A DNA stretch of 37,354 nucleotides from positions 1 through 37,354 of the forward strand of contig JAJZCM010000015.1 in assembly GCA_021846045.1 (NCBI GenBank), read 5' to 3'. The position numbers were made by a program, and so were the translations under genes. Positions 367 through 27,341 of this stretch are shown here, piece after piece. Below the pieces are notes generated by a model. It was not told where the DNA came from and made no database searches. It worked only from the letters and a program-made list of their open reading frames with translations. This DNA is from a bacterium. Lineage in GTDB: Bacteria > Elusimicrobiota > Elusimicrobia > UBA1565 > UBA9628. The number at the start of each line of letters is the position of its first letter. Position 1 is the first letter of the stretch.

Positions 367-372
367 ATTTCA

Positions 373-2286: not shown

Positions 2287-2298
2287 TTTAGGTTGACC

Positions 2299-2784
2299 TT
2301 ACTGCGCGCCGGATTGCTGGTACCAATATTTAGGAGCGTGAGGATTAAGAGGATAGCGGAGAGGCGCAGTCGAATCCACAAAAGCGATTACTTGATGCCC
2401 TCGGATCACATAGCCCCAGCCGCCGGTGTTTTTAATCTTTCCGCCGTCAACCCTGCCATTTCTTAGAATAGTCGACGGGTAAACCGTGACGAGGCGGGCG
2501 TTTCGGTAGCCCGGAATCCCCAATTCGACGATTGGAATTTCAAATAAATATTTAGGAACCAAGGATTGAATGTCGCGCGGGATTGCGCCGTTGTCATGGT
2601 AGTAGGCGGCTATCGCGGAGTTGATATTGCCCAAAGACGAAAGAGTCTGGGATTCATCCGCTTGGACTTGGACCTTTAAAGCCTCCCTATCCATCGCGCG
2701 AGAGGTGGAGTCATCAAAAAGTTTCGTTGAAGACGCGCAGGCGGCAAAAGACAGCAGAGCTGATAAGAGAAAAAACTTTTTCAC
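2299..2784 (-). CDS. Lipoprotein with pilin-like (type II secretion G-like) domain
   Basis: This 161-residue protein begins with a lipoprotein signal peptide ending ...LSFAAC, so Cys16 would be the lipidated residue. The mature part contains a segment running NINSAIAAYYHDNGAIPRD followed by LVPKYL. That resembles the helix-plus-loop of T2SS pseudopilin G proteins, in which a long helix leads into 'Y...G..P..L..L'. No prepilin peptidase motif is present, so it is more likely an envelope lipoprotein using that fold than a secreted pilin. Its ATG overlaps the mnmA stop as ATGA, so it is translationally coupled as the last gene of the string. No terminator is visible in the 12 bases before the convergent protease gene. 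Function is not known. Confidence 0.7.
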   Translation of the reverse strand: MKKFFLLSALLSFAACASSTKLFDDSTSRAMDREALKVQVQADESQTLSSLGNINSAIAAYYHDNGAIPRDIQSLVPKYLFEIPIVELGIPGYRNARLVTVYPSTILRNGRVDGGKIKNTGGWGYVIRGHQVIAFVDSTAPLRYPLNPHAPKYWYQQSGAQ

Positions 2785-3854: not shown

Positions 3855-5008
3855 GCCGCAACCAAACGGACTGAACGCATTTTTTTAACCACGTCCGGAA
3901 AAAGTTGAATAAACCGGTCGACTTCTTCTTGTTTTGTTCTCCAGCCGGTTGAAACGCGCAAAGCGCCCTTGATCAAATTTTTGGGAAGCCCCATCGCTTT
4001 CAACACATGGGAGGGACTTGAAAGCCCAGACTGGCAGGCCGATCCGCTTGAAACTAAAACCCCCTCCAAATCAAGCGCGATGGATAAGGAATGACCATCT
4101 AAGCCTTCAATTGAGAAATTGGAAGTGTTCGGCAGACGCTTGGCCCCGCCGCCATTTAAGAAAACGCCCTCAACTGAAAGGCACGCCTTCTCAATTTGTT
4201 TTTGCCAAACCGAATATTGAACGGAGTTGGGCAATTCCGCCAAGGCCAATTTCGCGGCTTCTCCAAAACTGACAATTCCAACGACGTTCTCCGTTCCACC
4301 CCTGCGTCTTTTTTCTTGAAGCCCGGCGATGAGCGGAAAAAGTTTGACCCCGTCGCGAATATAAAGCGCTCCCGCGCCTTTAAGCGCGCCCAATTTGTGC
4401 CCTGACACGGACAATAAATCCGCGCCCCAAGTTGAGGCCGTAATTTCAATTTTGCCGGCGGACTGAACTGCGTCGGAATGGAATAAAACGCCTTTTTCTC
4501 GGCAATAAGCCGCTATTTTTTCAATGGGCTCAATGGTCCCGGTCTCGTTATTGGCCTGCATAACCGAAACCAAGGCCGTCTCCTCGTCAATGGCGTCAAA
4601 GAGAGAATCGCAGTCGATAAGTCCATCCGAGCGAACTTGCGCTTCGTAGATTCTAAATCCTTGACTCGACAAAACCGGCAACATCTCCCGAACGCTGTCG
4701 TGTTCAATGGAACTCACAATGATTTTTTTTCTGCCGCTCTGTTGAAGAGAATGCCAAGCCGCCCCGTAAAGCGCGGCGGAATTGGCTTCCGAGCCGGAAG
4801 AGGTAAAAACGATTTCCCGCGAGCTTTTCGCCCCTAAAAGGCGCGCAACACTCTCTCGGGCAGATTCAACGGCGCGCCGCACTTCTTGGCCAATACGGTA
4901 CGGACTATTGGGATTGGCAAAGCCGTCTCTTAAATAAGGCGCGACCGCTTGCGCCGCCTCTGGGCGGATAGGGGCCGTCGCGTTATAATCGAGGTAAGCG
5001 GGTTCCAT
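3851..5008 (-). CDS. Cysteine desulfurase (NifS/IscS family)
   Basis: This PLP enzyme of aminotransferase class V converts L-cysteine to alanine and an enzyme-bound persulfide. I start at the ATG at 5008 (385 residues), where the family's opening, AYLDYNATAP, begins. The longer ORF in the track is the preceding gene's sequence read in another frame. The PLP lysine Lys205 is in SVSGHKLG, His104 is in SIEHDSV, and the persulfide cysteine Cys325 is in SSGSACQSG. The loop after Cys325 is of the longer IscS/NifS group rather than the SufS group. No scaffold gene (iscU or nifU) is adjacent. Instead mnmA follows with an ATGA overlap, so the likely job is sulfur supply for tRNA thiolation, with a wider Fe-S role possible. 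The stop of the upstream lipoprotein gene is one base away. Confidence 0.93.
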   Translation of the reverse strand: MEPAYLDYNATAPIRPEAAQAVAPYLRDGFANPNSPYRIGQEVRRAVESARESVARLLGAKSSREIVFTSSGSEANSAALYGAAWHSLQQSGRKKIIVSSIEHDSVREMLPVLSSQGFRIYEAQVRSDGLIDCDSLFDAIDEETALVSVMQANNETGTIEPIEKIAAYCREKGVLFHSDAVQSAGKIEITASTWGADLLSVSGHKLGALKGAGALYIRDGVKLFPLIAGLQEKRRRGGTENVVGIVSFGEAAKLALAELPNSVQYSVWQKQIEKACLSVEGVFLNGGGAKRLPNTSNFSIEGLDGHSLSIALDLEGVLVSSGSACQSGLSSPSHVLKAMGLPKNLIKGALRVSTGWRTKQEEVDRFIQLFPDVVKKMRSVRLVAA

Positions 5009-5009
5009 G

Positions 5010-5750
5010 TCAAGGACCGAAACCAAAGCCCTTGAAGAGATTATCTTCCGACTGCGCCGAGGGAGCGGCGTTTTCTTTTTTCTTCTTCGGAGAAGCGGGC
5101 GAGGAAGCGGGAGGCAATGTTCCCGGCAAAGGGGCGGCGGCCGTACTGCCGGCAAGGCTTTGAACTGGAGCTACGATCACTTTGCGGATTCCTTCCGCGA
5201 AAACAATCATCCCGGTCTTTTCCTTGTAATAGAGCCTAAAGGGACTCTGCTTCATCTGCGGCTCATAAGCTTTTCCGAGATTGGATTTTTCTTCCTCCCA
5301 TCCCGGGTTATACGCCAATTTTCCCCTAACATCGACGATCCCATCGACAATCGGCAAAGAGAAACGAATTCGGTAAAAACCGTTGGAATCGCTAACCCCC
5401 GGATCAAAAGAACTGACGGCCAAGGCTTTTTCCCCGGTGTCGAATTGATCTTGACTTTCCTGGCCTTCGGCGGAAGCCACCGCGCGCACCACCACTCCTT
5501 GAATCGGGTTATCGGCATAATCGGTCACTACCCCTTGAATGTAGCCATCCAGAAACTGGCTTTTCTTCGGAAGAGAGAAGAATATGTAGTCATTGACGCC
5601 CGTCAATTTTTCAGTGATGGATAAATCGACGACCCGGCCCTCGGCAAAATCCAAAACGACAATTTTTCGAGGGGCCCCGCCGCAACCCCAAAACGTAAGC
5701 CCCACCAGAAAAAACAGTCCCGCCCAACTGTGGGTTTTCATTTTTTTCAT
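5010..5750 (-). CDS. Lipoprotein with carboxypeptidase-regulatory-like (Ig-fold) domain
   Basis: The product is about 246 residues. The chosen ATG at 5750 overlaps the stop of the upstream gene as ATGA, and a second ATG at 5741 is possible. A hydrophobic segment ending TFWGCGG forms a plausible lipobox, anchoring the mature protein by its single cysteine. The middle (residues about 70-150) contains GYIQGVVTDYADNPIQGVVV and, later, DSNGFYRIRFSLP. This is the pattern of CarboxypepD_reg-like/transthyretin-like beta domains common on bacterial surface proteins. The last 50 residues are Pro/Ala/Ser/Lys-rich and probably disordered. It lies between a secreted 391-residue protein and the desulfurase. 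No enzymatic role is suggested. The fold call is moderately confident and the function unknown. Confidence 0.65.
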   Translation of the reverse strand: MKKMKTHSWAGLFFLVGLTFWGCGGAPRKIVVLDFAEGRVVDLSITEKLTGVNDYIFFSLPKKSQFLDGYIQGVVTDYADNPIQGVVVRAVASAEGQESQDQFDTGEKALAVSSFDPGVSDSNGFYRIRFSLPIVDGIVDVRGKLAYNPGWEEEKSNLGKAYEPQMKQSPFRLYYKEKTGMIVFAEGIRKVIVAPVQSLAGSTAAAPLPGTLPPASSPASPKKKKENAAPSAQSEDNLFKGFGFGP

Positions 5751-6922
5751 AAAAAAGAGCGGCGGAACACAAAAGCCGCAATCAGAATCGGGAACAGGCT
5801 CAAGGAAAGCCACCATTTTGCCGCATTGTCAGAACCGGAAAGGGGCGGCAGTTCCGCAAGCGGAACATCGCTTAGTTTAGCTTGAGAAACGTTTGTCTCA
5901 AAAACGGATGAAAACGGAATGAAGAAATTCCATTTTGAATTAAGATTGGAAGAAGCATCCGAACTTAAACTTTGATAGACCCCTCCCACCTTACGGAAGA
6001 GGGAAAAATCTAAAATCCGCCTTGAGACGGTCATGACAATTAAGACCGGAAATCGGCCCGCAAAGGAAACTCCCGAAAGCAAATCTTCACCAAGACCGCC
6101 GCCGGAATCGGAAGATTGAGACAGCGCCGTCCATGAGCGCAACAAAATCTCATTAGTCGAGTCTCCCGGGGAGGGAATTTCTCCGACTGGAGAAACGGAC
6201 GGGTCTCGCCCCGAGGAAACCGATGCCGCATAACCGCCATTTGGTAATTGCTCAGGTTCGTCATTCCAACGCAAACCGGAATTCGGAAAATTGCCGCTCT
6301 GGACCCCGGCTTGCGTCGGGGTGACGTGAGTAATTACGCCATTTGGGTCATTCAGGACAGTCCCCAATTCTCTTTTGGATAAATGCCGCTTTGAGCGCTC
6401 TTGAGATTTCCCTTGCGATAAAAGCCGCCACAATTCATCGCTGATTTTGCGCCCCTTTTCGGCCGATTTTCTCGCGTCGTTTTCCCAAGTCTTCAGATTT
6501 TGAAGGGGCTCCTTAAGTTCGATTTCACGACGCCGAATGTCTTTTGAGAAAGGCAAATTTTGGTCTCGCGGTAAAGGAATGGAATCGCCGGGCGCCGCGA
6601 TAGGCCCAACATTGTTGGTCAACGGGTGAACTGCAGACGAACTCATGGGAGAATTGGGGCTGACGGGCAACGCTGAAAAAACTCCCAAGGGAATCGCTTG
6701 AGGAAGAGCGGTTTGAGGAGCCGTCCAAGTCAAAGTCAAGGGCGCGCCGAATCCGGAAGGCAAACCCGCATTTTGAGGCAAAGTTTCCAAACTCGCGCCC
6801 CCCGAAAAAGCCAGCGGCATGGCGCCGTTTCCGCCGACAATATTGCGTGAAAAAGCGCCGGCATGAAGATTTCCCGCCAGGCAAAGAACCAAGGCAAGAA
6901 GCGCCAGTATTTTCGTATTCAT
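5747..6922 (-). CDS. Exported protein of unknown function with C-terminal membrane anchor
   Basis: This 391-residue protein starts at the ATG at 6922, ten bases after the stop of the giant gene; the track's longer ORF runs back into that gene. It has a clear signal peptide (MNTKILALLALVLCLAG, cleavage near AGA), a long Pro/Ser/Asn-rich region, and a short Lys/Arg-rich helical stretch (residues about 135-180). A translated copy of the 96-bp repeat follows near residues 195-227. At the C-terminus is one hydrophobic helix, LSLSLFPILIAAFVFRR, followed by basic residues, much like an anchor or sorting segment. I recognise no domain. The layout (signal, linker, repeat, C-terminal hydrophobic plus basic tail) resembles a small version of its giant neighbour, which also ends in a membrane helix and a basic tail. 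They may share a location. Confidence 0.6.
   Translation of the reverse strand: MNTKILALLALVLCLAGNLHAGAFSRNIVGGNGAMPLAFSGGASLETLPQNAGLPSGFGAPLTLTWTAPQTALPQAIPLGVFSALPVSPNSPMSSSAVHPLTNNVGPIAAPGDSIPLPRDQNLPFSKDIRRREIELKEPLQNLKTWENDARKSAEKGRKISDELWRLLSQGKSQERSKRHLSKRELGTVLNDPNGVITHVTPTQAGVQSGNFPNSGLRWNDEPEQLPNGGYAASVSSGRDPSVSPVGEIPSPGDSTNEILLRSWTALSQSSDSGGGLGEDLLSGVSFAGRFPVLIVMTVSRRILDFSLFRKVGGVYQSLSSDASSNLNSKWNFFIPFSSVFETNVSQAKLSDVPLAELPPLSGSDNAAKWWLSLSLFPILIAAFVFRRSFL
6242..6337 (-). repeat. 96-bp double-hairpin repeat, copy B, inside the 391-aa protein gene
   Basis: On the minus strand it reads GTAATT... CACCCCGAC-GCAA-GCCGGGGTC ...GAATGACGAACCTGAGCAATTAC. Length and order match copy A. Both outer arms changed together (GTAACT/AGTTAC in A and D, GTAATT/AATTAC here), which keeps the outer stem paired. 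Hairpin 2 is weakened (ATTCCGG...TTGGAAT) but can still form G-U pairs in RNA. It is translated in the same frame as copy A (VTPTQAGVQS...RWNDEPEQLP). Confidence 0.8.
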
Positions 6923-6932
6923 TCCTATAGAA

Positions 6933-9900
6933 TTATAGAACATTCTTTCTTCGCTTTTTCTTCTTAAAAATCGCGGCAAAAATCCCCGCCGCGGTTCCGA
7001 AGAAAAGCGCTATTTTGGCGGCATAGGATAAAATCCTACCTTTAAGCGACAGCGCCGCATGAGGCGTAAAGGAAACCATAAGGGCGGGCTCTAATTCTTC
7101 CAAGCGGCGAATATAACGTTTCCACCAAGAAACTTGGCGAGTCAAAACCTGTTCGCGCGCCCGATCGGCCTTAAGGCGAGATTCAATTTCTTGCTGAGAA
7201 AGGACCCTGATCTCCCGCCCATAGACGTCTTCATGGAGCCGATCCGCCGCGACTTTGGAGCCGGAATCCAACGCCTCGTTTTCCTTTCTCATCCGTTCGA
7301 TCTCGATCTTTCTTTTTTTCAGGCTCGCCAAATCGCTTTTCCTTGCCGGGAGGTCCTTTTCTATTTGGTCGACATATCCGCGAGCTTCCTTGGAATCAGA
7401 TTGATATTCCTTGGCGCCGGCATCTATTTGAACCGTTTTCTGGGTGCGGTTGACCCAAATATCCTCGGGCTTGCCCGAAAAGACGGTCTTCCCCGAACCG
7501 TCCGCATTAGGAGACAAGCCCAGCTCCTTGTCGCTTAAAGCCTTGGCTAACGCTTTTTCCCCAACCGCTCCATTCTTTTGAGATTCCTCGTAAGGTTTAT
7601 CCCGTCCCTGCATTTCATTGATGACAACCTCGGACACCCCGCCGCGGAAATGGGCCAAGGTTCTTAATCTCGCGGCATTAATGTCTTCCTGATAGTAGCG
7701 AAGTAGACGCTCCAAAAATTGAGCTCCAAAATGAATATCCTTGTCTTTATACCGCCCGCTTAAAGACGCTTCGCTGTCTCCAGGCATGAGCGTCGATTGT
7801 CCCACGCGCAAATCGGGCGGAAATTGGCTTAAGTCATAATAGGGAGTGACCGGGTCCGGAAGGAAATTAAGAACATCGAGAGCCCCGGCGACATTGCGGA
7901 AAAAACCATGATGTTCCGTCGCCCCGCCTTCGGTCTTATACATAGCGACGCGCCCAAGATAATGACTAAATCTAGGATCTCGCCCCGCCCATTCCGCGGG
8001 GAAACCCACGATTTCGCGCGGAACCTCCATCATCAAGCTTCCCCAACGCCACGGCATCACGCCCCAGTATTTTTTGAAGGGAAGATGGAAGGATACGTTT
8101 TTGGCGCTCTTTTCCAAGTATCTCTGATTTAAAAGGACGGGATAGTTTTTTCCGTCGATCAAGGCCTCGTAATGGCTGACGCGCAAGGCCGGGTTGATCT
8201 GGTTCTTGGATTCAAACACGTTTTTCTCGCCCTTAATCGTCTTTGATTTCAATGTCCAGGACTTCGCCGCTTTTTCCATTTCCGAGGCGCTGTCATAGTG
8301 ATCGACCAAGCGCCCTTCAGAATCCATGATGGCGGCATAAATCGGCCCGCGCACGTACACGGCGGCTTTCCGTGACGACAAGCGGTCATCGAGAACGGAG
8401 CGTCCGTAAACCGGGGAAGCCTGGGCGTGGAGAAGCGTTTTATCCGAAGCAAAGCCCAGAATCAAATCGCGACTGCGGTAGAGGCTCCACGTCTTCGAAT
8501 GCCGTTTAATTTTGAACGCATCCTCCACCTGTTTTTTGGCGTCCGTAAACACCGCGGATTGAAGTTTCAAATCATCGCGAGCCGTATTCAATTTCTTGGA
8601 AAGCGAGTTGACATATTTTTGCTCGCCCTTATATTTTCCATTCGAGGCCAATTCTTTTTTAATCTGCTCATCCAGCCGCTGAGCGTAATCTTTATCTGAT
8701 TCCTTGTCTTTTTTAGGATACTGATCATGAGTATCCGCTTTGATTTTTTCCGACATCTCATTAGAAACTCGAACGCCGTCCAGCATCGCTTTCTCGGCTT
8801 CTTTTTCTTTTTTCTCGGACTCCCCTTGAGCTTGTTGGGCTTTAATTAATTTCAGTTGCGCGACCTTAAGCCCCGCATCCGCGTCCGACAGGGCCTTTTT
8901 AGCCGCGTCAAAATCATCCCGGTTTAAATAAATTTCCGCAACTTCTCCTCTCTCATTTCTCATAAAACCGTATCCGGCCAATTTCAGCTCCACGTATCCG
9001 GCCCGAAGTTCCGCCCGACGCCGAGAATCGAAGAAATCCGCCAAATTCGCGGCTCCTTTTTTAGAGAGATAAATCCGGCTGAAATCTCCCTTCATGGAAG
9101 AAGCCTTGAGAGATTCGAGGGTCTCGAATTTATCCGAGGGGAAAGCCGCTTTCCCCGTATAGACATAGACTTCGTATCGGTCCGGAGACCTGGCCCAAGC
9201 CGCCAAGGCCGGCAGTCGGTAATGCAAGCGCCCTGCATCTTTCGGATCGGGAGCCTCAAAGAAAAGGACTTTCCCTTGGCTTAAAAGACCGTGGGAACCG
9301 AAAAGTTCTTGGACGGAATAGCCGTTTTTGCCGTCGTCTGCGACGAAATCATGCCGGCCAAGGCGTTCCGCCAAATCAATGACGTGAGAATCTCCCTTGA
9401 TGCCGTTTTGCGTTTCAGATTTTTGCCGCTCAAAAGCGTCCGAACCTCCGACAAACTCGACGTTCGGATTCGCTTCGAGGAAATAGCGTCCGTTAATTTT
9501 AACGATTTCGTCTTTGCTTTTGTTTTTAGGATTCATGCGGTCTTTAATCTCATCGAGACTGAGCCAACGCTTGACCGTCCACAAACGGCGGCCGTCCTTA
9601 TCCATCTGGGTCTCGGCGTAAAGGGGATAAAGTTTTGATCCATGGCTGAGCCAAGAGGCCTTCTTGTCTTCCAGTTGCGCGATTTTAAGCGCGACGGCGT
9701 TGATGGACTGTTCCGATCGCCCCTCCCATCTCTCGGCAAAGAGCCGGGATTTTTCAAGCATAATCAAGGCGTCCAAGGCGAGAATCCCTCGCCCGGATTC
9801 CTTAAAATCAATTTGGCGGTTGAGACTCTTTCTGGCGTCATAGAGAGCATCCAGCGTGCGCATGAGCTCCACGTTTCCTTGGACCTCTTTTAGGTCCAAG

Positions 9901-12900
9901 GTTCGGACCAAATCTTCGTCAAAAACTTGCTGAGCCTTGAGATAGTTGTCCAAAAGCCCGTCTTTTAGGATAAATTCGTCGTTTTTCAAGGGCGAGGCGA
10001 AATAAGAATCAATCAATGCGTCTTTGGCCAAAATCAATTCTTGGCGATCCGCTTCAAGGGCTTTAAAGGCGGCTTCCGATCGAGGAGAAACCGAGACCGC
10101 GTTCCAATACGCATCACGAAGGTCCAAGGCGGCTTGGGAATATTCTGTCCGCTTTTGATCGCTTGAACTCAATTCTTCTTCCAAATCCTGGCGCAAAAAC
10201 GCTAATTGCGGGTCCTTTTTTAAGATTTCGGTCTTGAGCGCTTCAAGGCCAAACATCAGGAGATTTCTCTTCCCGCGCGCGTCATTTTTCGCCAAGAGGC
10301 GCAGTCTTTCATCCGACGAGAAATTTTCCGCTGTCGCATCCTTGGAGTCGCGGATCGCGGCGCTGTAAAGGCGAGCCACTGAATCGACGGAATCAATCAT
10401 CTGCCGGGAAATTCCCCATTTTTCAAGATAATGATCTTGGCGGAGGATAAAGTTCGGGTCTTCCATGCGATCCGCCCAATAGCCCAAAAGCCCGCGATCC
10501 GATGGATTTTTGGGCAAACCATGGTTTTCCAAAACGCGCTGGTCCCCCAAGCTCAGATTCTTAAGCAAGGGATTCGGCGCCGAGGAGTTTTCTTTCCGCC
10601 CCAAGGCTTTGAGTTCCGACACCAAGGAAATAAAATTGGATTTCAAATCCGCCGACTGAGTGATCAACTTTTCCCAAGTTTGAACTAAATTTTTCCTTGC
10701 CTCCAAGAAATCTTGCTGAGCCTTGGGCGATTCCGGATTATGATTGGCGGTCCACTCTTTCTGCTTTAAGTCGCTGGCCGCCTCATCCAACAAACGGCTG
10801 TCGGCCTGAACTTCCTTCATTCCACCGGAAACGCGGGCCATTTGAGTATAGAGAACTATTTCAAGTTTTTTAAACTGCCCCTGGGCCTTCAACTGCTCGC
10901 GAATGGAGTTGGATAAAATATCGGTCAACCCGCGTTCAATTTCCTGCGGGTCGGGGGCTTCTAAAAATCCGCCGAAAATAGGGGTTCCGCGGAAAATTCC
11001 AAAGGCGGCAATCGGCGTAATCCCCTGATAACTCATGTGTTCAGCCAGCACATCGGCGCGAATTTGGTTCATGAAAATGTCTTTCTCGTTCTGAGGCCCA
11101 AAAGCCTCTAAACCCAACATTCGAGCAATGCGCGCTTTACCCGCCGGAGAATTAATTTCTTCAACCAGATAAGGTAAATCGCCGGAGGAGTCAGTTCCCT
11201 TAAATTCCGGAACAAGATTCGATAAGAGGCGCAAACGCTCTTCCATCGTCTGCCCCTGAGCCCGCGAGAGCCCCAACAACGCCCAGATCTCTTCCGATTG
11301 AGAGAGCGTTTTTTGGCGAACGGAATTAATCATATCCGCCCAATCAGTTCCGACTTCTTTCCCATGATGCAATTGAATCCAGTTAAGAAAACGGACATTC
11401 TCCGTGAAATCGGCCAACTCCGAATCGGCCAACGCCGCCGAGCGCTCACGGGCAATTTTGTCCAAACGCTCGGCCTTATCCTGGGACAATTTGGCCAAGG
11501 CGATTAAATCCGGAGCCGGGGTGTCCTTGTTTTTGAGGCGCAACTCGATCCAGGGCTCCAAAAATCCGCGATTAATCGGAGTTTCATCCAAGGTCTGCCG
11601 GGCGTAAAAATAGCGCATGAACATTTCCGCCGGAGCCTTATCAAATCCTGGAGCGGGAATCGGGGGCAAGGAATCCAAACGGGGAGTGCGGGTCACCTTT
11701 TCTTCTCCATCGATCAGACGGCGCCGAAGTTCCGCAAAATTGGCGGGCAGGGAAGCGGAATTGTCCTGTACGGAGGAATTTCCCTCAAGACTGAGAAGAG
11801 AGGCTTGAATGGCGGCCTTGTCTCCTTTTAATTTTTCCACCTTGGCGAAATCAAGCGAATCCCCCTTTGCCGACAATCTTTGAATCTCGGAATCGATCAT
11901 TTGAAGGCTGACCTGGCTGCGCGCTTGAAGATTCGCTAAATGAGCATCGAAGGAATCTTTCTGCCTTTCTTCCATTAAAAGTCTCAGGCGCGCGGCCATC
12001 ACCTTATCGGCGCGGCCCGAGTCTTCCGCCGACAAGGCGCTAATTAATCGCCCGATCGTCCGCGCCGCCAGCGAAATCGGATCGGCTGAAACATCCTGAA
12101 CCTTCAGATTTCTATCAACCATCTCTTGATAAGCCCTGGCCACTTGAACGCGAGCCGCGAAAATAGTCTTTTGGGCCGCAACCAGATTCTGATCCTTGAG
12201 AACTCCTTGAAGTTGTTGATAAGCCTTCTCCGGAGAGATGTCGATGGACAGCACGGAATCCGCCGGACGCCCCATCAAGACGTTGAGAGCTGAATGAGCC
12301 TCGTCGTTAGTCAAAACCATCTGAGCGCGCCACAGTTTCGCGTTGAAGATTTCCTTTTGGATTTTGTCGGCTTTTGCGCGGTCGCCTAAAGACCGGGCTT
12401 GGGAGAGCTTTTGCTCAAGGCCGGGAAGAACTTCTTGATCCACCTGGGCGATGACCGACTGAGCGGCTTTGGCTTGAACGATATCTTGATACATTTGAAG
12501 AGCCGTCTCGACCTTGAGTTTCGTCTCCAAAGCCCCGTAATAGGCGGATTTGCCCTTGTCGGCTTTGACTTGCAACTCTTTAAGCTCTCCCGGCTGAAAG
12601 TGCGCTCCCGGAATCGGTAAAATCGGAAATCCGGTAAAGCCAAAAGAAGGCAAGAACCCGGCGCCGGTGGCGGTTAAATCCGCTCCGATCATGAGGTTAA
12701 TCCAGAATTTTTGTGTGATGTGATTGTCGGCTTTCGCCAAAGCCTGGAACTCTTCTTGATGAAGGGCCAAGGCTTCCAAGGACGAATTTTGAAACGCAGT
12801 TTGAACGGCGCCCTTTAAGTCTGAAACGCTGAAAGGCGGCGAATCCGAAACATTTTTTCCGCCGACCGCCTCATCCATCTTGGCCCAGGCGCCGGACGCA

Positions 12901-15900
12901 GCGGCGAGGGACTCTGAATTTACGGTCGCCTGGGCGTTCAAGTCCCACAGGTTAATGGCCTGCCTAAGCTCGTTTCTTGAAATCAAGCCGTTGCGATAGG
13001 CCTTAAAGGCAAACTCTAATTCGTTGCTGGTCCGCGGAAGAGCCGCAGTCATTTCCTCGGCCGTCTGCCCCCAGACAGCGGCTTCTTGGCGCTCATTATT
13101 GGCTAAAAGACGGTATTGAGAATGGATGTCCTCCATTTCCCTGAGATCAGCCTCTTTTTTAAACAAATAGCTCTTATTTTTATCCTTGGACGACGGATCA
13201 TAGAAAGGAAGGCGCAAGGTTCCACCGACGCCGAAAATCTGTCCCGCCATTAAATCCTGGATTTGAGTTCCAATGCCGAAAGTAAATTGATCGACAAATG
13301 AAATCCAGTCCATGATGTTAAAGCGATCTTCTCCGATGCGGTCCTCAAGAGAAGTCTTGTCCAAGGACGCGAGAATTTTCTTCAAACGGTCGGGGGCGGA
13401 CACAAACGAGTGGATTTCCTTGACTAAATTTTGAACGTCCGCAAGATTGAGATCGTCAAACGGCGTTGGGGAATCCGGATTTTTTCCGGCCATGATGTTA
13501 TAGCGCACGCGCGCCTCGCTTAATTTTTCAAGCGCCTCCGCCAGCCGCGCGTTGGCCTTGCCCTTTTCGATGACGGAAGCGGCGTTTTGGCTCAAAAACA
13601 CCGCGCGCTGGGCGGCAAGCCGAGCCTTGACAATTTGAAGAGCGTTTTCCTCCCAATCCTTCGTTAATTGAACCAACCGCGATTGGAGCAAAAGACCGTT
13701 CTTGTAGAGAGAGACGACCTTGCCGTCCAAAAGCTCCTTCTGAGTCTTTGAGAGAGTCACCATGGTCTCGGTGCCGCTCATGAAGCCTCCGGTGGCGGCC
13801 AATTCTGCCGGATTATTTGAAACCGGGCCTGAAACAAAGCCAGCGTCTCCCACCACCTTGACGTTATCTAAAATCGCACCCGCCGCTCTTAAATCCTTGA
13901 TATCGTGGTCCAAGGTTCCAATTTTTTGTTCAATCAGCCTTCTTCCGACGTCCTTGGCGAAGACCGCTTTAAGTTGGTTAATATCTTTTTGGCCTTTTTG
14001 GGGCTTGAGAAAACCCGTCATTCGCTTTTGATAGTCCTTGAGGGCTTTCCCCCCGTTTAAATCATTGGAGGCGCTGTGGGTCACATCATTCCAAAGCTGA
14101 GAAAGACTGGCCGAGGTGTTGACCATCAAAGACAGGCGGTTATTGTAGCCGACAAAGGGAGAACCGTATCCAACTGACACATCAGTTCTCTTGGTCAATT
14201 GCTTGCCAATCTGCGCGTAGTAGGCGTCCGCCGACCCCAACATCTGCCATTGGGCGCTGAAAACAATTCCGTTTTGGGGAAGTTTCACCGACAACTGATC
14301 AATGGCGATATTATACTGTTGCCCCAACTCTCCGGTCGCGGTGTTGGTGATATCAATCAAGGGGTGTTTCGCATCGTCATAAATGGTAAAGCCTTTGAGA
14401 ATGGTCGCCCCCAAGGTCTGCTGGGCAATGTCGTAAGTGCCGGCGTAATTGGCGTAATAAAGGTCCACGGTAAATGGATTTTCGTCATTTTTAGAAACTA
14501 TTCCCGCTTGTTTGAGAAGAGACGCCACGTCGAATTTAGGTCCGACCTTTGTTTCATAAAAGTTTGCGCTCGCCCCATGCGCGGCGATATCGAAGGTTTG
14601 GTTGAGGCTCGGGTCAAGACCGGTGAAGTCGAGATTGGCGGTTTCAAAAAACTGCCGCGGATCTTTTGCGAACAAAGCCTGCTGGTCGGCATCCAAGCTC
14701 ATGACAGGGGTCAATTTAATTGAAGTCTTGGCGTTCGCCCCGTAGTAATAAGGCTGATTGGCAGAATTTTGCGCCGCCGCGTCTCCAAAACCCGTCAAGC
14801 CGACGTAAAGCTTTCCGTTCATCAAAAGCATCGCGTAATCATCAAAGATAAGAAGACGCGACTCATTGGCTTGGGACCCAAACGACATATTCGGAGGAAC
14901 GTCCAAAATATCGTGATGGATGATCGCCTCGAAATAATTAACGTCATTTTTGCGCAAGGTCTCAACTTGAACACCGATACCCTTGTCTCCCCAAGGGGCA
15001 TTGGAAGCTCCGCCGGTTTCCGGTGGAGAATAGGTGTCATACGCCGTCACGCTCAAATTGCTGCCCATCACATGGGCAACATTCCCCAAGGTCACTTGAT
15101 TGGTCGAACTGAGTCCGTAAGGAACGCCAAACCCGGTTTGATAAACCAAATAGAAGCCGTCTTCGGAATCCCCCAGATTCATAATCTGCGCTCCGGGAAT
15201 CAGTTGGGAGATGTTTTGGGGATTGGAGAGAATGCTTTGCGCCAAGGATCCGATATCGGCCGAGGAAGCGTTTTGCCCGCCGGAAAGGCTTGAAAGAATA
15301 TTATGGACAAAATCAGGGAAGCTCGATTTTTTAATCACTAAGGCCGAGGCCCCGGAAGAGGAGTTAAGCCCCATCCCCCATCCCGAGTCGCTTAAGTGAA
15401 GGGAAGCAATCTCTTGCTTAATATGATTGGGCAATCGATCCCATCCGTCATCCTTTAACTTATCAAGCAGATGAGTCAACCGGTCCTGCTTATCCTGAAC
15501 CAAATCCATATCCGCCTTGAGGATTCTGTCGGTTCGAGAAAGCTGGTCCTTTGATTGAGTCCACAGATGGTTGGATTCAAGAACCTTGCGGGTGTCATCC
15601 TGAATCGAGGAAATCGCCTCCGAAGTTCTTCTCAACGCGCTGTCATAAGGGCTGTTGAGTTGCCCCATCCAGGACAAGAGTTGCGATTTCGTGCTATTGA
15701 GGCTGCTCATCGTATTTTGAAGCGCCGTCATCATCGAATTCATCGCCGACAAGTCGCCCTGGTCAACCGTGACCCCCGAGCCGTAAACCTGGTTAGCCAT
15801 GGCCTGATAATAGGTGGAAAGCAAATTGACCGTCCCCAACGACCCGGGATCGTATTGATTGATTTTGAGATTGTAAAAATTGATTCCTTCTTGGAGAACG

Positions 15901-18900
15901 GACTGAAGGGAATTGAGCATCGCGATTTGATTGGCGTAAACTGTCGCGGTCGGAGGGCTGTTGCCGCCTGAATTGACGTAGGCCTGGTCCTGTTTTAATT
16001 GCGCCTGAGCTTTGTTTAAGGCGGCAGTCGCATCATTTAAGAATTTTTCGACCTGGGGAATTTCAGTTGTGAGTTCCTGCTGGGAACTTTGAACCGTCGA
16101 AAAGGAATAGAGAAAGCGCGCGATGGAATAAGAAATGGAAGGAGAATTAGCGCTGCTTCCGGCCGATGGCGCCAAGATTTTTGTCGCGTCCAAGGCTAAG
16201 AGGGCCAATTGTTGCGAATTAGAAACCGTCGGAGAGGGCTGATGCCCGGTTTGAACCGCAAGGCCGCCTCCCCCGCCCACATTGATAGGAGATCCGAAAC
16301 CCGCTTGACCCGCGATATTTTTCAACTCGGAAACCAAACCCATCAAATTCCCATTATTAGTCACGGAGAGAGAATAAATCTGGTTATATCCCGCTTGACT
16401 TGCCGCGACGTTAGTCGGCAGTTGATAGGACGACAGATTGTATTTCCCCCCTGACAGGGTCTGGATTTTCGTCAAAATTTGGTTGAGTTGCGCGTCCTGA
16501 TTGTTGATTTCCTTGACGCGCTGATCCATTTCAGTCGTGTAAAGAGTGGTTTTTTTCGGAAGGCTGTACGGCCCGCCGCCGGGATAATTGCTGTCTTTTA
16601 AATAATCCACGGTCTCGTTTCCGTTAAAATTCGGGTCTTTTCTTTCATTGACCTGGGTTAGATTTGTTGAAACCGTCTGTTGAAGGTTGGTGAAATTGTT
16701 CTGCCAGGACTGCAAACTCGAAGCGGCATTTTTGGAATTGCCGCCCAAAGAAATGAGCCCCCCGGGAATGGTCTTATCATTGAGCTGCTGGGTCTGGGTA
16801 ATGAGAGAATTTTCGGCGCTGAAAAGTTCCTGATAGGTTCCATTCTGGGATACTTGCTGAACGGAAGACTCTTGGTAGGGAATGAGGGTATTTTCCAAGC
16901 CGCCTTGAATGGCGGTCAAGGGAGCGATGACGTCGTTTTGAAGCAAGTTTTCCTTGCGGTTAATGAGCGCCTGCACCGCGTTGGTCGGGGGATTGGAGTT
17001 GGCATTGGGATATTGCGCCACGAAGGTCTGATCAGACTGCACATCATTGAGAATGTTTTGCACCATGTTGACCGCTTGCTTCATGGCCGACTGGGCCTGA
17101 GGGACGGTGTTTTGAAGCGCGCTTTGAATGGTGGTCACAGTCGTCTGGGCTTCGCTTCCCTGAATGACCAGCCAAGCTGCCTGCGGCAAGAGGGAAGCGA
17201 TTTTTACCAAATCGAGGGAAGCCTGGAAAGATTGGGGCGTCCCGTTATTGGGAATCTGGACGTTTTCAATATCTGCGCCGTAATTGGCAATTGTGGTCTG
17301 AAGCTGGGTCATCGAAAGTCCTGAAAGCTGGGGCAAGGCCGTGCCGCCGGCCTGGGTGATCTGAGAGGACAGTTGATCCATTTTAGCGATGATGGGGTTG
17401 AGGGATGTTTTCGCTTGGCTTAAGGTTTGGCCGGCCTGGGCTTCCCACGCCGGCAAAGATTGCGGATGGGATCTCCCAAACTCATCGGTCACGGTAATTT
17501 GATTATTCGGATCCAACATGGCCTCAACCGAGTTAAGATCTTGTTGAAAGGTATGAAGCTGTCCTTGCCAGTAAGTCTTGCGCGCGCTTAAAATCTCGGA
17601 GAAGCTCATTGAATTCGAAATGCCCGGGCCTCCCGGAACGTCCTTGATGATCATCGGCCAGGCTTGAGTGGGCGCTGTCTTAAGCTCGTTCAGTCCATTC
17701 TGGGCCGATTGGAGATTAGTCTGAACCTCGCTGAGGATGATTTTAAATTCTCTCAGGGAAAAAGCCGACGGGTCGTTGGGGTTTCCGTTGGTTCGCCATT
17801 GGGACACCTGCCCCAGCTCTTGCTCGCGAAGTTGGAACTTGCTTTCTAAAGCCTGCGCCTCGGAATCAAAACTCCCGGTTTTGACTCCCTCATGGGATGC
17901 AATCGTCGCCATCACGGAGGGAAGCACGCTTTGAACGGCGGTGAAAACTTGAACTGCGGAAGAAGCCTCGTTAAAGTCGGAAGTTAATTGACTTTGCTGG
18001 GTCTGATCGGCCTGGGTCTGCTGAACCGTCTCCTGTTTCCATTGAGGGAGATTGGACTCCGCCTGTTGAGCCGCCGCTTCGTTTTGCTGGGACAAGGTCT
18101 GGGACTGAGTGATACTTTGGATATTCGTGTTTAAAAGATTCTCCATTCCGCCGATGGCATTTTCCGCCGCATTGATTTCACGAAGCCCCAAGGCAAAATC
18201 CATGACTGCCGAAACCTGGGAAAGGCTCTGGATGAAATTCATCATGTCATTCCCGTTTCGGCGATTATTCAAGGCCTGATCCCGCGCCTTGGACACCACT
18301 TCAAGCGTTTTTCTAGTTGCATCTCTCATCTTCATCTGCGCTGAGGCATTGGCCCTCAAAGCTCTAATTTCCTTAACCAGGCTTTCGATTTCTTTTTGAG
18401 TTTCCGGATTGACCGGCGCGATATCGGCCCGCGAGTTTTTATCATCAATTCCGATTTTTTGGTCCAAACTGCTCAAAACCGATTTCAACATCCCGGGGCG
18501 AATCCCCTTATCCTCGGCGTATCCGATGCGATCTTCCGCTCCCCTAGGCACAAGGGTCTTCAATTTATTTTTTAGCTGATGGAGACGTTCGTCGGAATTG
18601 CGGTCGTGGCGGCTTAAATCGCGGCTTTCCGAAAGCTTTGAGCGAACATAGCGCTCGTTTTGGGCTTGCCTTAATTTAGCTAACTGGGCTTTATAGGCCC
18701 TGAGCTCGCCGGGGGTCAAAGGCCGGTTTTGGGTCTTTAGCGCCGCTTCGTTTTTTTGGACCGAGGCCAAGTCTTTTTGAAGCTTAAGTTCTTGCGCGCG
18801 CGCGGCCTTCATCTCCTCGCTAAAATTCCCCGCCGACTTTTCAAGCTCTTTAAGGCGCGCCGCCCTTTCCTTCGGGGTCTTTTTGTAAAGATCGGGATCG

Positions 18901-20927
18901 AAAGGAATCGGCTTATTGGGAGCGGATGCCGTCGTCGTTAAGCCTATGGCGGAAACGCCGGCAGTGTGGGAATTCAAAGTGTGCATTACCGCATCGGATA
19001 AGTTAAATCCCGAAGCCGATTCGGCTTTGTAGAGAAGAATGTTTCCCCAGGTGATCGCGCCGCCCCAAGGAACAAGGCTTTGTCCCTTCGGAGCCTCAAA
19101 GGCCGAGAAAAGCCCGTGAAGGCCGTGAAAATCATGCCCCGTTACGACATGCCAGGCTGGGCTGAGACCCGTGTCAATCTGGGTTCCGTAGGAAAGAATC
19201 CCTTGGATTTCAGAGCCGACGGTCAATAATCCTAGGAAAAATTTGAGGTCCTGCCAAATAAAGAACTTCCAGAATTCACGGGCAAAAATGGCCGAGGCCA
19301 CGGTCTGAGTCCAACCGACGGAATCCGATGGATGTTCCGCTTCAAGCCGGCGGCGATGCTGATCCAGCGACTGGGGCAAGGTAAAAATGGTTGAGAGAAT
19401 GAAGGTGTTTAAGATCGGGCCGAGAACCAAATCCTTCATCAGTGCCTGAGTGGCGGCGGCTACGACTGGAGCAAAAATCCCACCCATCCAGGGAATACCG
19501 GAAATAAAAACAGGAAGGCTGTTGGCGCCCGCAACCAGAAGCGGCCCTATCACGGGAGCTGACAAGAGACTTAAGTGAAGAATCGCAACTCCCGGGGCCA
19601 AGGCGCCCAAAATTCCCATCGCCACCGCTGAGGCCACCGCCATGATAAGCCGCCGCCTTAGAAAAGCGAGAAGCGGCAGGGGAGCAACATGGCCGAACAT
19701 TCTCACTGCGCGGCCAAGTCCGGTCGCGAGAAAACGCGAGGCCAAGGTTTCGCCTGCGCCCGATATCGCGGTTTCGCGCAAAACGCGGCGGAAAAATTTT
19801 TCGGCGTTCTGGGTCTCTACGACTAGCCCACCCTCGGCATCGGCCAGGCTTAAGAAATCCTCGGTTGAATGGGCGAAAGTATAGCTGGCGTTTTGCCGGA
19901 AATAACCCAGGACGAAAACGTCGAACAAATGATAGGGAAAACGGACAAAAAAGCCCAGCAGGTGCTTCTGTATCTCGAAGCTTCGCTCAATCCGGCCCTT
20001 CCACCCGTCTTCATAATGCAAATTCGCCAACTTTTGGAATCCAACATGGTATTTCTGCGCGTCGAAATGTTGGAAGCGCTGGGCATTAAGCCTTTGAAGC
20101 CCTAAATAAACGGAGTCCCATTCGGCATTGGAGGAGCTTTCTTTAAGCCCGACCTTGGAAGCAAGTTTTATAACGCGCGCGCGCGGTATATGGAACTGGC
20201 GGGAAATTTGATCGATGATTTGGGAAGTCTTGGCATTCAAGGGCAGGCGGGAAAGTCCGGAGTCATACTTCAAGCCGGCGACTTTTCGGTAGCCGAGCAT
20301 ATTCTCATAGAAAATTGAAACGCCCGGAGGGCCTTTGGAAGATTTCGGAGGCAACGCCCCTCCAAAGTCGCCCGGAGGCGGCCCTAGCGGCGGCCCTCCG
20401 TCTCCAATTCTCCCCGCACCATCAAAAAGCGCGTTGCTTGCCAAGGCCGCAGACTCGGGAGACCCCGGAGAAGGCGAGTCAGCATTATCGTCATTCCGGC
20501 GACCGAGCATCGGCGAGGAAGCGCCGCTTCCGAGTTTGTTGGAAAGCGGCTGAAAGCCGGAATCCGACCGAGCGATAACGCGAGGAAGCGCCGTTTCCAG
20601 ATTCCGAAGGGGAACGGCCGGACCACCGCGAACGGACTGGACCCCGGCTTTCGTCGGGGTGACGATGGGGGAGTTAGGGACTCCTAACTCGCGTTCGCGG
20701 GAAGGGAGCACCGCGTTCGAAGGAGGAATTTCAGCGCCAAATTGAGACGCCGCAGACGGATCCAAGGATTGTTCAGGAAGAGAGATGGCGTTTCCCAGCG
20801 GATCGGAAGAGTCTTCTTTGGGGGCGTCAGCGGCTAAAACCGTGTAAAAACGGGCGCCCGGAGACAATAAGATCAAGCTGAGCGCCAAAAAGGCCGAGAG
20901 AAACCGCTTGAACTCTTTTTTTATCAT
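6933..20927 (-). CDS. Giant exported protein (4664 aa) with coiled-coil and TolC-like segments
   Basis: One uninterrupted frame encodes about 510 kDa. Visible regions in order: a signal peptide (residues 1-33); a Pro/Ser linker with a rearranged palindromic repeat (about 85-150); a hydrophobic zone with several possible membrane helices (about 425-560); charged coiled coil (about 675-780); a Gln/Asn/Ser-rich helical stretch (about 930-1850); a beta-rich part (about 1950-2270); segments resembling TolC-family outer-membrane factors (about 2380-2700 and 2720-2900, with LNVLMGRPADS, the 'L..L.G.P' signature); long Lys/Glu-rich helical repeats; and a C-terminal helix IALFFGTAAGIFAAIF followed by KKKKRRKN. 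I found no cysteine in the whole chain. The ATG overlaps the upstream PQ-loop gene as ATGA and lacks a good RBS, so translation is probably coupled. A surface or envelope-spanning role is inferred. The gene is surely real; the domain calls are tentative and function is unknown. Confidence 0.9.
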   Translation of the reverse strand: MIKKEFKRFLSAFLALSLILLSPGARFYTVLAADAPKEDSSDPLGNAISLPEQSLDPSAASQFGAEIPPSNAVLPSRERELGVPNSPIVTPTKAGVQSVRGGPAVPLRNLETALPRVIARSDSGFQPLSNKLGSGASSPMLGRRNDDNADSPSPGSPESAALASNALFDGAGRIGDGGPPLGPPPGDFGGALPPKSSKGPPGVSIFYENMLGYRKVAGLKYDSGLSRLPLNAKTSQIIDQISRQFHIPRARVIKLASKVGLKESSSNAEWDSVYLGLQRLNAQRFQHFDAQKYHVGFQKLANLHYEDGWKGRIERSFEIQKHLLGFFVRFPYHLFDVFVLGYFRQNASYTFAHSTEDFLSLADAEGGLVVETQNAEKFFRRVLRETAISGAGETLASRFLATGLGRAVRMFGHVAPLPLLAFLRRRLIMAVASAVAMGILGALAPGVAILHLSLLSAPVIGPLLVAGANSLPVFISGIPWMGGIFAPVVAAATQALMKDLVLGPILNTFILSTIFTLPQSLDQHRRRLEAEHPSDSVGWTQTVASAIFAREFWKFFIWQDLKFFLGLLTVGSEIQGILSYGTQIDTGLSPAWHVVTGHDFHGLHGLFSAFEAPKGQSLVPWGGAITWGNILLYKAESASGFNLSDAVMHTLNSHTAGVSAIGLTTTASAPNKPIPFDPDLYKKTPKERAARLKELEKSAGNFSEEMKAARAQELKLQKDLASVQKNEAALKTQNRPLTPGELRAYKAQLAKLRQAQNERYVRSKLSESRDLSRHDRNSDERLHQLKNKLKTLVPRGAEDRIGYAEDKGIRPGMLKSVLSSLDQKIGIDDKNSRADIAPVNPETQKEIESLVKEIRALRANASAQMKMRDATRKTLEVVSKARDQALNNRRNGNDMMNFIQSLSQVSAVMDFALGLREINAAENAIGGMENLLNTNIQSITQSQTLSQQNEAAAQQAESNLPQWKQETVQQTQADQTQQSQLTSDFNEASSAVQVFTAVQSVLPSVMATIASHEGVKTGSFDSEAQALESKFQLREQELGQVSQWRTNGNPNDPSAFSLREFKIILSEVQTNLQSAQNGLNELKTAPTQAWPMIIKDVPGGPGISNSMSFSEILSARKTYWQGQLHTFQQDLNSVEAMLDPNNQITVTDEFGRSHPQSLPAWEAQAGQTLSQAKTSLNPIIAKMDQLSSQITQAGGTALPQLSGLSMTQLQTTIANYGADIENVQIPNNGTPQSFQASLDLVKIASLLPQAAWLVIQGSEAQTTVTTIQSALQNTVPQAQSAMKQAVNMVQNILNDVQSDQTFVAQYPNANSNPPTNAVQALINRKENLLQNDVIAPLTAIQGGLENTLIPYQESSVQQVSQNGTYQELFSAENSLITQTQQLNDKTIPGGLISLGGNSKNAASSLQSWQNNFTNLQQTVSTNLTQVNERKDPNFNGNETVDYLKDSNYPGGGPYSLPKKTTLYTTEMDQRVKEINNQDAQLNQILTKIQTLSGGKYNLSSYQLPTNVAASQAGYNQIYSLSVTNNGNLMGLVSELKNIAGQAGFGSPINVGGGGGLAVQTGHQPSPTVSNSQQLALLALDATKILAPSAGSSANSPSISYSIARFLYSFSTVQSSQQELTTEIPQVEKFLNDATAALNKAQAQLKQDQAYVNSGGNSPPTATVYANQIAMLNSLQSVLQEGINFYNLKINQYDPGSLGTVNLLSTYYQAMANQVYGSGVTVDQGDLSAMNSMMTALQNTMSSLNSTKSQLLSWMGQLNSPYDSALRRTSEAISSIQDDTRKVLESNHLWTQSKDQLSRTDRILKADMDLVQDKQDRLTHLLDKLKDDGWDRLPNHIKQEIASLHLSDSGWGMGLNSSSGASALVIKKSSFPDFVHNILSSLSGGQNASSADIGSLAQSILSNPQNISQLIPGAQIMNLGDSEDGFYLVYQTGFGVPYGLSSTNQVTLGNVAHVMGSNLSVTAYDTYSPPETGGASNAPWGDKGIGVQVETLRKNDVNYFEAIIHHDILDVPPNMSFGSQANESRLLIFDDYAMLLMNGKLYVGLTGFGDAAAQNSANQPYYYGANAKTSIKLTPVMSLDADQQALFAKDPRQFFETANLDFTGLDPSLNQTFDIAAHGASANFYETKVGPKFDVASLLKQAGIVSKNDENPFTVDLYYANYAGTYDIAQQTLGATILKGFTIYDDAKHPLIDITNTATGELGQQYNIAIDQLSVKLPQNGIVFSAQWQMLGSADAYYAQIGKQLTKRTDVSVGYGSPFVGYNNRLSLMVNTSASLSQLWNDVTHSASNDLNGGKALKDYQKRMTGFLKPQKGQKDINQLKAVFAKDVGRRLIEQKIGTLDHDIKDLRAAGAILDNVKVVGDAGFVSGPVSNNPAELAATGGFMSGTETMVTLSKTQKELLDGKVVSLYKNGLLLQSRLVQLTKDWEENALQIVKARLAAQRAVFLSQNAASVIEKGKANARLAEALEKLSEARVRYNIMAGKNPDSPTPFDDLNLADVQNLVKEIHSFVSAPDRLKKILASLDKTSLEDRIGEDRFNIMDWISFVDQFTFGIGTQIQDLMAGQIFGVGGTLRLPFYDPSSKDKNKSYLFKKEADLREMEDIHSQYRLLANNERQEAAVWGQTAEEMTAALPRTSNELEFAFKAYRNGLISRNELRQAINLWDLNAQATVNSESLAAASGAWAKMDEAVGGKNVSDSPPFSVSDLKGAVQTAFQNSSLEALALHQEEFQALAKADNHITQKFWINLMIGADLTATGAGFLPSFGFTGFPILPIPGAHFQPGELKELQVKADKGKSAYYGALETKLKVETALQMYQDIVQAKAAQSVIAQVDQEVLPGLEQKLSQARSLGDRAKADKIQKEIFNAKLWRAQMVLTNDEAHSALNVLMGRPADSVLSIDISPEKAYQQLQGVLKDQNLVAAQKTIFAARVQVARAYQEMVDRNLKVQDVSADPISLAARTIGRLISALSAEDSGRADKVMAARLRLLMEERQKDSFDAHLANLQARSQVSLQMIDSEIQRLSAKGDSLDFAKVEKLKGDKAAIQASLLSLEGNSSVQDNSASLPANFAELRRRLIDGEEKVTRTPRLDSLPPIPAPGFDKAPAEMFMRYFYARQTLDETPINRGFLEPWIELRLKNKDTPAPDLIALAKLSQDKAERLDKIARERSAALADSELADFTENVRFLNWIQLHHGKEVGTDWADMINSVRQKTLSQSEEIWALLGLSRAQGQTMEERLRLLSNLVPEFKGTDSSGDLPYLVEEINSPAGKARIARMLGLEAFGPQNEKDIFMNQIRADVLAEHMSYQGITPIAAFGIFRGTPIFGGFLEAPDPQEIERGLTDILSNSIREQLKAQGQFKKLEIVLYTQMARVSGGMKEVQADSRLLDEAASDLKQKEWTANHNPESPKAQQDFLEARKNLVQTWEKLITQSADLKSNFISLVSELKALGRKENSSAPNPLLKNLSLGDQRVLENHGLPKNPSDRGLLGYWADRMEDPNFILRQDHYLEKWGISRQMIDSVDSVARLYSAAIRDSKDATAENFSSDERLRLLAKNDARGKRNLLMFGLEALKTEILKKDPQLAFLRQDLEEELSSSDQKRTEYSQAALDLRDAYWNAVSVSPRSEAAFKALEADRQELILAKDALIDSYFASPLKNDEFILKDGLLDNYLKAQQVFDEDLVRTLDLKEVQGNVELMRTLDALYDARKSLNRQIDFKESGRGILALDALIMLEKSRLFAERWEGRSEQSINAVALKIAQLEDKKASWLSHGSKLYPLYAETQMDKDGRRLWTVKRWLSLDEIKDRMNPKNKSKDEIVKINGRYFLEANPNVEFVGGSDAFERQKSETQNGIKGDSHVIDLAERLGRHDFVADDGKNGYSVQELFGSHGLLSQGKVLFFEAPDPKDAGRLHYRLPALAAWARSPDRYEVYVYTGKAAFPSDKFETLESLKASSMKGDFSRIYLSKKGAANLADFFDSRRRAELRAGYVELKLAGYGFMRNERGEVAEIYLNRDDFDAAKKALSDADAGLKVAQLKLIKAQQAQGESEKKEKEAEKAMLDGVRVSNEMSEKIKADTHDQYPKKDKESDKDYAQRLDEQIKKELASNGKYKGEQKYVNSLSKKLNTARDDLKLQSAVFTDAKKQVEDAFKIKRHSKTWSLYRSRDLILGFASDKTLLHAQASPVYGRSVLDDRLSSRKAAVYVRGPIYAAIMDSEGRLVDHYDSASEMEKAAKSWTLKSKTIKGEKNVFESKNQINPALRVSHYEALIDGKNYPVLLNQRYLEKSAKNVSFHLPFKKYWGVMPWRWGSLMMEVPREIVGFPAEWAGRDPRFSHYLGRVAMYKTEGGATEHHGFFRNVAGALDVLNFLPDPVTPYYDLSQFPPDLRVGQSTLMPGDSEASLSGRYKDKDIHFGAQFLERLLRYYQEDINAARLRTLAHFRGGVSEVVINEMQGRDKPYEESQKNGAVGEKALAKALSDKELGLSPNADGSGKTVFSGKPEDIWVNRTQKTVQIDAGAKEYQSDSKEARGYVDQIEKDLPARKSDLASLKKRKIEIERMRKENEALDSGSKVAADRLHEDVYGREIRVLSQQEIESRLKADRAREQVLTRQVSWWKRYIRRLEELEPALMVSFTPHAALSLKGRILSYAAKIALFFGTAAGIFAAIFKKKKRRKNVL
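20490..20665 (-). repeat. Rearranged double-hairpin repeat, copy C, inside the giant gene
   Basis: Hairpin 1 (GTCACCCCGACGAAAGCCGGGGTCCAG region, near 20637-20665) is intact. Hairpin 2 is split: GGATTCCGGCTTTC near 20554-20567 and GCCGGAATGACGA near 20488-20500 are separated by about 55 bases of other sequence. A 19-base direct repeat with one mismatch (GCGAGGAAGCGCCGCTTCC, 20513-20531 and 20580-20598) lies inside and beside the split. The frame is the same as in copies A and B (VTPTKAGVQS ... GRRNDD), so the linker grew without a frameshift. Confidence 0.65.
20671..20690. repeat. Short perfect inverted repeat beside repeat copy C
   Basis: GAGTTAGG-GACT-CCTAACTC is an 8-bp perfect stem with a 4-base loop. 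It lies a few bases from hairpin 1 of copy C in the giant gene's linker-coding region, and it may be a worn outer arm of the element or an independent palindrome. Confidence 0.5.
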
Positions 20928-24297: not shown

Positions 24298-24393
24298 GTA
24301 ACTACTCGCGTCACCCCGACGAAAGTCGGGGTCCAGAGCAACAATTTTCTGGATTCCGGCTTTCGCCGGAATGACGAACCTGAGCAGTTACTT
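24298..24393 (+). repeat. 96-bp double-hairpin repeat, copy D, intergenic
   Basis: GTAACTACTCGCG-TCACCCC... to ...GAGCAGTTACTT is the same length and nearly the same sequence as copy A, with both hairpins perfect. It lies between the divergent RDD and ACT-protein genes. GCTTCT occurs directly before it (24292-24297) and directly after it (24394-24399), so a 6-bp target duplication is possible. Confidence 0.85.
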
Positions 24394-25782: not shown

Positions 25783-25828
25783 CAATTTTACCTCAATTCA
25801 ATATTCCGCAGCCCGTGGTGATGAGCCA

Positions 25829-25837
25829 TGGTATACT
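25829..25837 (+). promoter_or_regulatory. Extended -10 promoter of hsdM
   Basis: TG-G-TATACT ends ten bases before the hsdM ATG (25848). No Shine-Dalgarno lies between, so transcription should start within a few bases of the ATG and give a nearly leaderless mRNA. Confidence 0.5.
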
Positions 25838-25847
25838 ATTTGTGTCT

Positions 25848-27332: not shown

Positions 27333-27341
27333 GGAAGAAGC

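Follow-up and report, generated by a model that had tools for sequence, protein, structure and literature searches.

The window analysed here, a 37,354-nt stretch of DNA, is contig C79 of a 2.0-Mb bacterial genome assembled in 93 contigs. It carries a very large gene for an exported protein, hereafter the giant gene, whose features are collected in Table 1 together with its immediate neighbours. A sequence-only reading of the window had described the protein as free of cysteine, with several TolC-like units mid-chain, a beta-rich region, and a C-terminal membrane helix followed by a basic tail; each of these descriptions was borne out, as detailed below.

Table 1. Features of the giant gene and of the genes adjoining it (positions are those of the window; AF2, AlphaFold2; percentages are profile-profile probabilities)
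Feature	Residues	Position	Strand	Basis or remark
Downstream gene, exported low-complexity protein		5747..6979	-	C-terminal TM helix and basic tail; likely ATG near 6922
Giant gene	1-4664	6933..20927	-	4664 aa, exported, cysteine-free; ATG start, no internal stop
C-terminal membrane helix and basic tail	4628-4664	6936..7046	-	
Conserved C-terminal region	3470-4620	7068..10520	-	Motifs MPWxWG, TEGGxTEHHGFF, DLSQFP/DPSQFP
Half-unit 6, putative: hairpin and long helix pair, weakly like OEP C-half	3226-3441	10605..11252	-	AF2; 36%
Half-unit 5, putative: hairpin and helix pair	3057-3225	11253..11759	-	AF2 only
Half-unit 4, putative, degenerate: helix pair without beta-hairpin	2901-3056	11760..12227	-	AF2 only
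Half-unit 3, like OEP N-half	2697-2900	12228..12839	-	AF2; 97%, E 1.5e-10
Half-unit 2, like OEP C-half	2491-2696	12840..13457	-	AF2; 91%
Half-unit 1, like OEP N-half	2300-2490	13458..14030	-	AF2; 57%
Beta domain of ~20 strands, predicted outer-membrane beta-barrel	1926-2274	14106..15152	-	AF2, PDB matches, alternation
Helical Q/N/S-rich coiled-coil region	690-1840	15408..18860	-	AF2 all-helical for 1131-1830
Conserved N-terminal domain, putative inner-membrane anchor	200-640	19008..20330	-	
Four hydrophobic segments	425-520	19368-19655	-	Inside N-terminal domain
Palindromic-repeat copy, in frame, interrupted by further sequence	89-148	20484..20663	-	Linker after signal peptide
Sec-type signal peptide (MIKKEFKRFLSAFLALSLILLSPGARFYTVLAA)	1-33	20829..20927	-	Sequence; probable cleavage site
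Upstream gene, 531 aa		20924..22519	-	Signal peptide and membrane segments; ATGA overlap with giant's start codon

The giant gene, its relatives and its neighbours

Homologues of the giant protein measure 3.7-5.6 kaa and are colinear with it over almost their full length. They were found in 34 of the 44 genomes of the window's own bacterial family and, with a profile of the best-conserved part, in 42 of 285 Elusimicrobiota genomes; the latter take in the greater part of that family, further families from its order, and a small number of families elsewhere in the class. When one genome per GTDB species was scanned, 52 loci were returned, and every record that named an organism belonged to Elusimicrobia/Elusimicrobiota. 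Comparison with the gene of a congener (L045) allowed 4,624 codons to be aligned, and the values obtained (dN 0.106, dS 0.953, dN/dS ~0.11) show by computation that the giant gene is under purifying selection. Since the homologues are colinear and dN/dS is this low, the gene is real and conserved, and an assembly artefact or a pseudogene was ruled out as its explanation. Two loci carry the giant in pieces: in one it is split into two overlapping ORFs of 1010 and 3663 aa (L046:1742-15762), and in the other (G013, contig C1, ~2547253-2554223) its sequence is shared by two ORFs, a single TGA lying within a stretch that matches.

The N-termini of the homologues are similar in sequence to the signal-peptide region of the window protein, and a signal peptide for export, which an outer-membrane beta-barrel protein needs, is present in both. 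At the other end, the window protein closes with a hydrophobic helix (4632-4650) and the tail KKKKRRKNVL, and most relatives likewise end with a hydrophobic helix and a basic tail. Pfam searches of all relatives assigned neither the N-terminal domain nor the C-terminal region to a known family, giving weak, scattered and inconsistent matches. Since shorter paralogues (~3.7-3.9 kaa) occur without the N-terminal TM domain, inner-membrane anchoring by that domain is not general. The coiled-coil region carries a tandem duplication, 1113-1446 / 1405-1778 (self-profile match 97.7%).

Sequence similar to the 531-aa upstream gene sits inside the giant ORF in three relatives (L052, L093, and L122), which, together with the ATGA overlap, points to a linked function. 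Downstream of the giant, several relatives have similarly built genes for exported, anchored low-complexity proteins, and a dCache-HAMP-PAS sensor protein is encoded next in some of the relatives. Neither the window nor the relatives' loci examined showed a recognisable pump, ATPase or adaptor gene next to the giant.

Other features of these loci were also recorded. At least nine relatives, but not the window, have upstream of the giant a gene for a Y1_Tnp (IS200-like) transposase with a weak DnaA-type helix-turn-helix match; Pfam identified it in two of these (L048:3710-4624 and L056:867-1760), and the upstream genes of seven others (L050, L051, L052, L057, L058, L060, and L065) share N-terminal sequence with it. 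With up to 3 mismatches allowed, a genome-wide interspersed palindromic repeat (GTCACCCCGACG[A/C]AAG[T/C]CGGGGTCCAG...) was matched 96 times in the genome, compared to 0 for the reversed control. Its window copies lie at 643-669 (+), 6299-6325 (-), 20637-20663 (-), and 24310-24336 (+), and three of the four are in frame inside genes for exported proteins, the giant included. An exported C1 peptidase of bleomycin-hydrolase type, with one cysteine in 641 aa, is encoded at 361-2286 (+); used as a query against viral contigs, it found no relative. A type I restriction-modification cluster occupies 25815-37353 (+). Pfam identified HsdM (25815-27332), while the genes at 30002 and 35107 are HsdS-like and HsdR-like, respectively, by the appearance of their sequence alone; between these hsd-type genes lie several ORFs, of which the one at 28296 encodes an AAA_14/DUF4143 ATPase.

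Cysteine depletion across the family

A count by program found no cysteine in the 4664 residues, as the sequence-only reading had stated. In sampled contigs of the same genome, cysteine makes up 1.11% of proteins without a signal peptide or TM segment, 0.78% of signal-peptide proteins, and 0.67% of the latter after residue 25. At the rate of exported proteins, ~36 cysteines would be expected in the giant, and the Poisson probability of finding none is ~2e-16. However, genuine OEP proteins of the same bacterial family are themselves cysteine-poor (44 in ~15,900 aa, 0.28%), and therefore ~13 cysteines is a fairer expectation for an outer-membrane protein (P of zero ~2e-6). Part of the depletion, which the sequence-only reading had linked to export of the chain in unfolded form, is thus ordinary for residence in the outer membrane, but zero in 4664 residues is still far out even against this expectation. 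The depletion is, moreover, a property of the whole family and extends beyond the window protein: 29 aligned members contain 55 cysteines in 132,484 aa (0.042%), 10 of the 29 have none, and several of the remaining cysteines sit in or near the signal peptide. Near-absence across ~130,000 aligned residues constitutes an unusually clean avoidance of one residue in an envelope protein.

TolC-like half-units and a predicted beta-barrel

We compared windows of a family profile with OEP/TolC proteins of the same and related genomes, using reversed OEP profiles as decoys. Results showed a match to OEP confined to residues ~2400-2900, at 93% with a set of 7 OEP sequences and up to 96.4% with 33 OEP proteins; reversed profiles gave at most 2.6%. 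Other coiled-coil regions reached no more than 2.4% for OEP, except for a weak 14% at 3354-3434. In a unit-by-unit comparison (Table 1), the highest reversed decoy scored 13.9%, and half-units 4 and 5 gave no sequence match to OEP. OEP profiles run in windows, a check that the sequence-only reading had proposed, thus matched beyond generic coiled coil, at 93-97% and with low decoys. The motif that it had singled out, LNVLMGRPADS, lies at about residues 2880-2890, in half-unit 3, and half-unit 2 holds the FGVGGTLRLPFYDP strand and the AYRNGLISRNELRQA helix turn. Comparison of the profile with itself, which is independent of OEP, revealed an internal repeat of the TolC period (~405 aa; 2406-2517 / 2811-2918). 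Pfam gave no useful match on the window protein itself, which stayed below the curated OEP (PF02321) cut-off of 22 bits; this cut-off was exceeded at the equivalent place in three relatives, L046 (28.4) and L054 (27.7) at the counterpart of half-unit 2 and L071 (31.7) at that of half-unit 3. A sequence-profile search of the PDB with the alignment of the TolC part found no match.

AlphaFold2 modelling of residues 2281-3470 (47 sequences, pLDDT 73, pTM 0.72) predicted five strand pairs; a helix of 50-70 aa and then one of 24-41 aa come after each pair, and one further helix pair has no strands. By DSSP of the model and by Foldseek, the predicted structure shows the hairpins alternating with long helical pairs that characterise the TolC fold. 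The best 42 PDB matches were all channels of the TolC/OprM family (TolC, OprM, CusC and kin), with at best E 8.8e-5, probability 1.00, and TM 0.61 by target length, and the several TolC-like units of the sequence-only reading accordingly find a counterpart here: three half-units are backed by sequence, a fourth weakly so, and two by the model only. A generic coiled coil whose resemblance to TolC is driven by composition would agree with the silence of Pfam on the window protein and of the PDB sequence profiles. This reading is scarcely credible, however, since it is already contradicted by the specificity of the match to one stretch, the low decoys, the OEP cut-off passed in relatives, and the structural matches. 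OEP homology is therefore established by computation, and OEP-type modules in a conserved, exported, cysteine-free giant chain are well supported. Elsewhere in the same bacterial family, OEP domains occur in unusually long frames (G035:C300, 1531 aa; G001:C35, 1263 aa; G002:C4, 1063 aa).

Ahead of the half-units, the beta-rich region turned out to be a predicted outer-membrane beta-barrel of its own, which the sequence-only reading had not suspected. AlphaFold2 modelling of residues 1131-2330 (52 sequences, pLDDT 74, pTM 0.41, with a wide spread among the five models) gave helices to ~1830, followed at 1926-2274 by ~20 strands in succession, for which pLDDT was mostly 75-92 and lower in some stretches. 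The run of amphipathic strands typical of an outer-membrane barrel is thus present in a predicted structure of low pTM, and hydrophobicity alternates along the strands at 2.2, compared to 0.95 in control windows. No other part of the family alignment is as well conserved as this domain. No Pfam family fits it, and a sequence-profile search of the PDB with its alignment found no match. Among the structural matches listed, 50 of 50 were outer-membrane barrels; they come from many families, with PfeA, OmpG, AlgE, and BcsC among them, and their TM-scores are low (0.17-0.50). A soluble all-beta domain, either a sandwich or a propeller, would be in keeping with the pTM, the modest TM-scores and the lack of a Pfam family, but the uniformity of these matches across families, the strong in/out alternation, and the adjoining outer membrane factor (OMF) units make it quite improbable. 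A second outer-membrane barrel is therefore predicted on the same chain as the TolC-like units. The hairpin at 2248-2274 was considered as a sixth TolC hairpin and set aside, as its strands are those with which the separate beta domain ends in the model.

Proposed architecture and comparison with known systems

We propose, with a probability of about two in three, that the giant spans the envelope, is attached to the inner membrane, and has its own outer-membrane barrel and a TolC-like duct on one chain. Sec would export the protein, and its four-segment N-terminal domain would fix it in the inner membrane; the helical stalk (~690-1840) would cross the periplasm to the predicted barrel; and the tandem half-units of residues 2300-3441, which TolC takes from separate identical subunits, would build a duct of the TolC/OprM type. 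From the anchors at the two ends we infer that the C-terminal third returns from the outer to the inner membrane, where it would end in the membrane helix with its basic tail in the cytoplasm. The giant may then work as a tether and as a permanent exit duct across the envelope, one chain doing what TolC plus adaptors do in other Gram-negatives, and cysteine may be avoided since folding would take place in the periplasm and outer membrane. Two barrel-type regions on a single chain are unusual, which counts against this proposal, as do the moderate TM-scores of both parts, the low pTM of the barrel model, the lack of sequence support for half-units 4 and 5, and the shorter paralogues without the N-terminal TM domain. 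Moreover, nothing known would power transport, as the chain has neither an ATPase or RND domain nor a transporter domain of another kind.

How the half-units combine could be explained in more than one way. Their order is N-C-N-?-?-C, which keeps the phase for three protomers and thus suggests that three TolC protomers, i.e., a whole duct, may lie in one chain; since half-unit 4 has no hairpin, 10 instead of 12 duct strands are predicted. Such a duct of three protomer equivalents is the mechanism we favour. In its full form, a monomeric TolC in which six fused half-units replace the homotrimer and which, with a porin-like barrel, the stalk, and two inner-membrane anchors, bridges both membranes, it is held tentatively, at somewhat less than even odds. 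Canonical outer membrane factors are trimers, and several giants (e.g., three) might instead assemble into a duct to which each chain contributes units 1-2 or 2-3, with units 4-6 decayed or serving as scaffold. The clear OEP sequence signal in units 1-3 only and the missing hairpin of unit 4 would fit such a multi-chain duct, and an internal repeat of the OMF protomer has been described (PMC8277102). However, in the model the hairpins and helix pairs of units 5 and 6 are still there and conserved, relatives have the entire block in colinear form, and the order is in phase for three protomers, and we consider assembly from several chains a serious but rather doubtful alternative. A third explanation dispenses with the channel: the giant could be a periplasmic/outer-membrane scaffold or surface-layer-type protein that recruited OEP helices structurally and acts as a tether. 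The lack of a transporter domain, the extent of coiled coil in the chain, and the low-complexity anchored proteins encoded downstream are compatible with this, but the beta-barrel domain is the best conserved and the membrane-type hairpins are conserved, which renders it unlikely. Thus, a single-chain duct, with a function in export or as a tether, is what we infer for the giant.

With outer membrane factors (TolC, OprM, CusC; PF02321) the giant shares half-units of hairpin, long helix and helix, the order of N-half and C-half, and the motifs Y-x-x-G-L and L-x-x-L-x-G-R-P. TolC, however, is a homotrimer of ~430-490-aa subunits with two half-units each, whereas the giant has up to six half-units on a 4.7-kaa chain and, unlike TolC, an extra barrel, a stalk, and membrane anchors. 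A chain of 4664 aa with three to six half-units is therefore better regarded as a relative with OEP modules than as a standard outer membrane factor. Single-chain outer-membrane barrels (PfeA, OmpG, AlgE, BcsC) resemble its beta domain in the ~20 predicted amphipathic strands and are among the fold matches listed, but the giant matches no sequence family of theirs, and its barrel stands mid-chain and is followed by TolC modules. Like tripartite efflux pumps and type 1 secretion systems, it would bridge both membranes with an OMF-type duct, although no pump, ATPase or adaptor domain was recognised and the bridging parts lie on one chain.

TolC-type ducts have been described as homotrimers that assemble with separate pumps and adaptors. 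If the proposal is true, tandem TolC half-units on a conserved chain would mean that ducts can be covalently fused and desymmetrised, with their units free to evolve apart. In the open literature, we found no report of a natural single-chain TolC or of the giant's architecture. Elusimicrobiota are enriched in proteins >5000 aa without COG assignment, according to the available part of a survey of huge proteins (PMC11573180), which in that part assigns them no architecture or function; for one family of very large proteins from this phylum, with some members >5000 aa, an architecture is now proposed. It joins in one chain a barrel and TolC-type modules; other known bacteria have such parts as separate proteins of small size.
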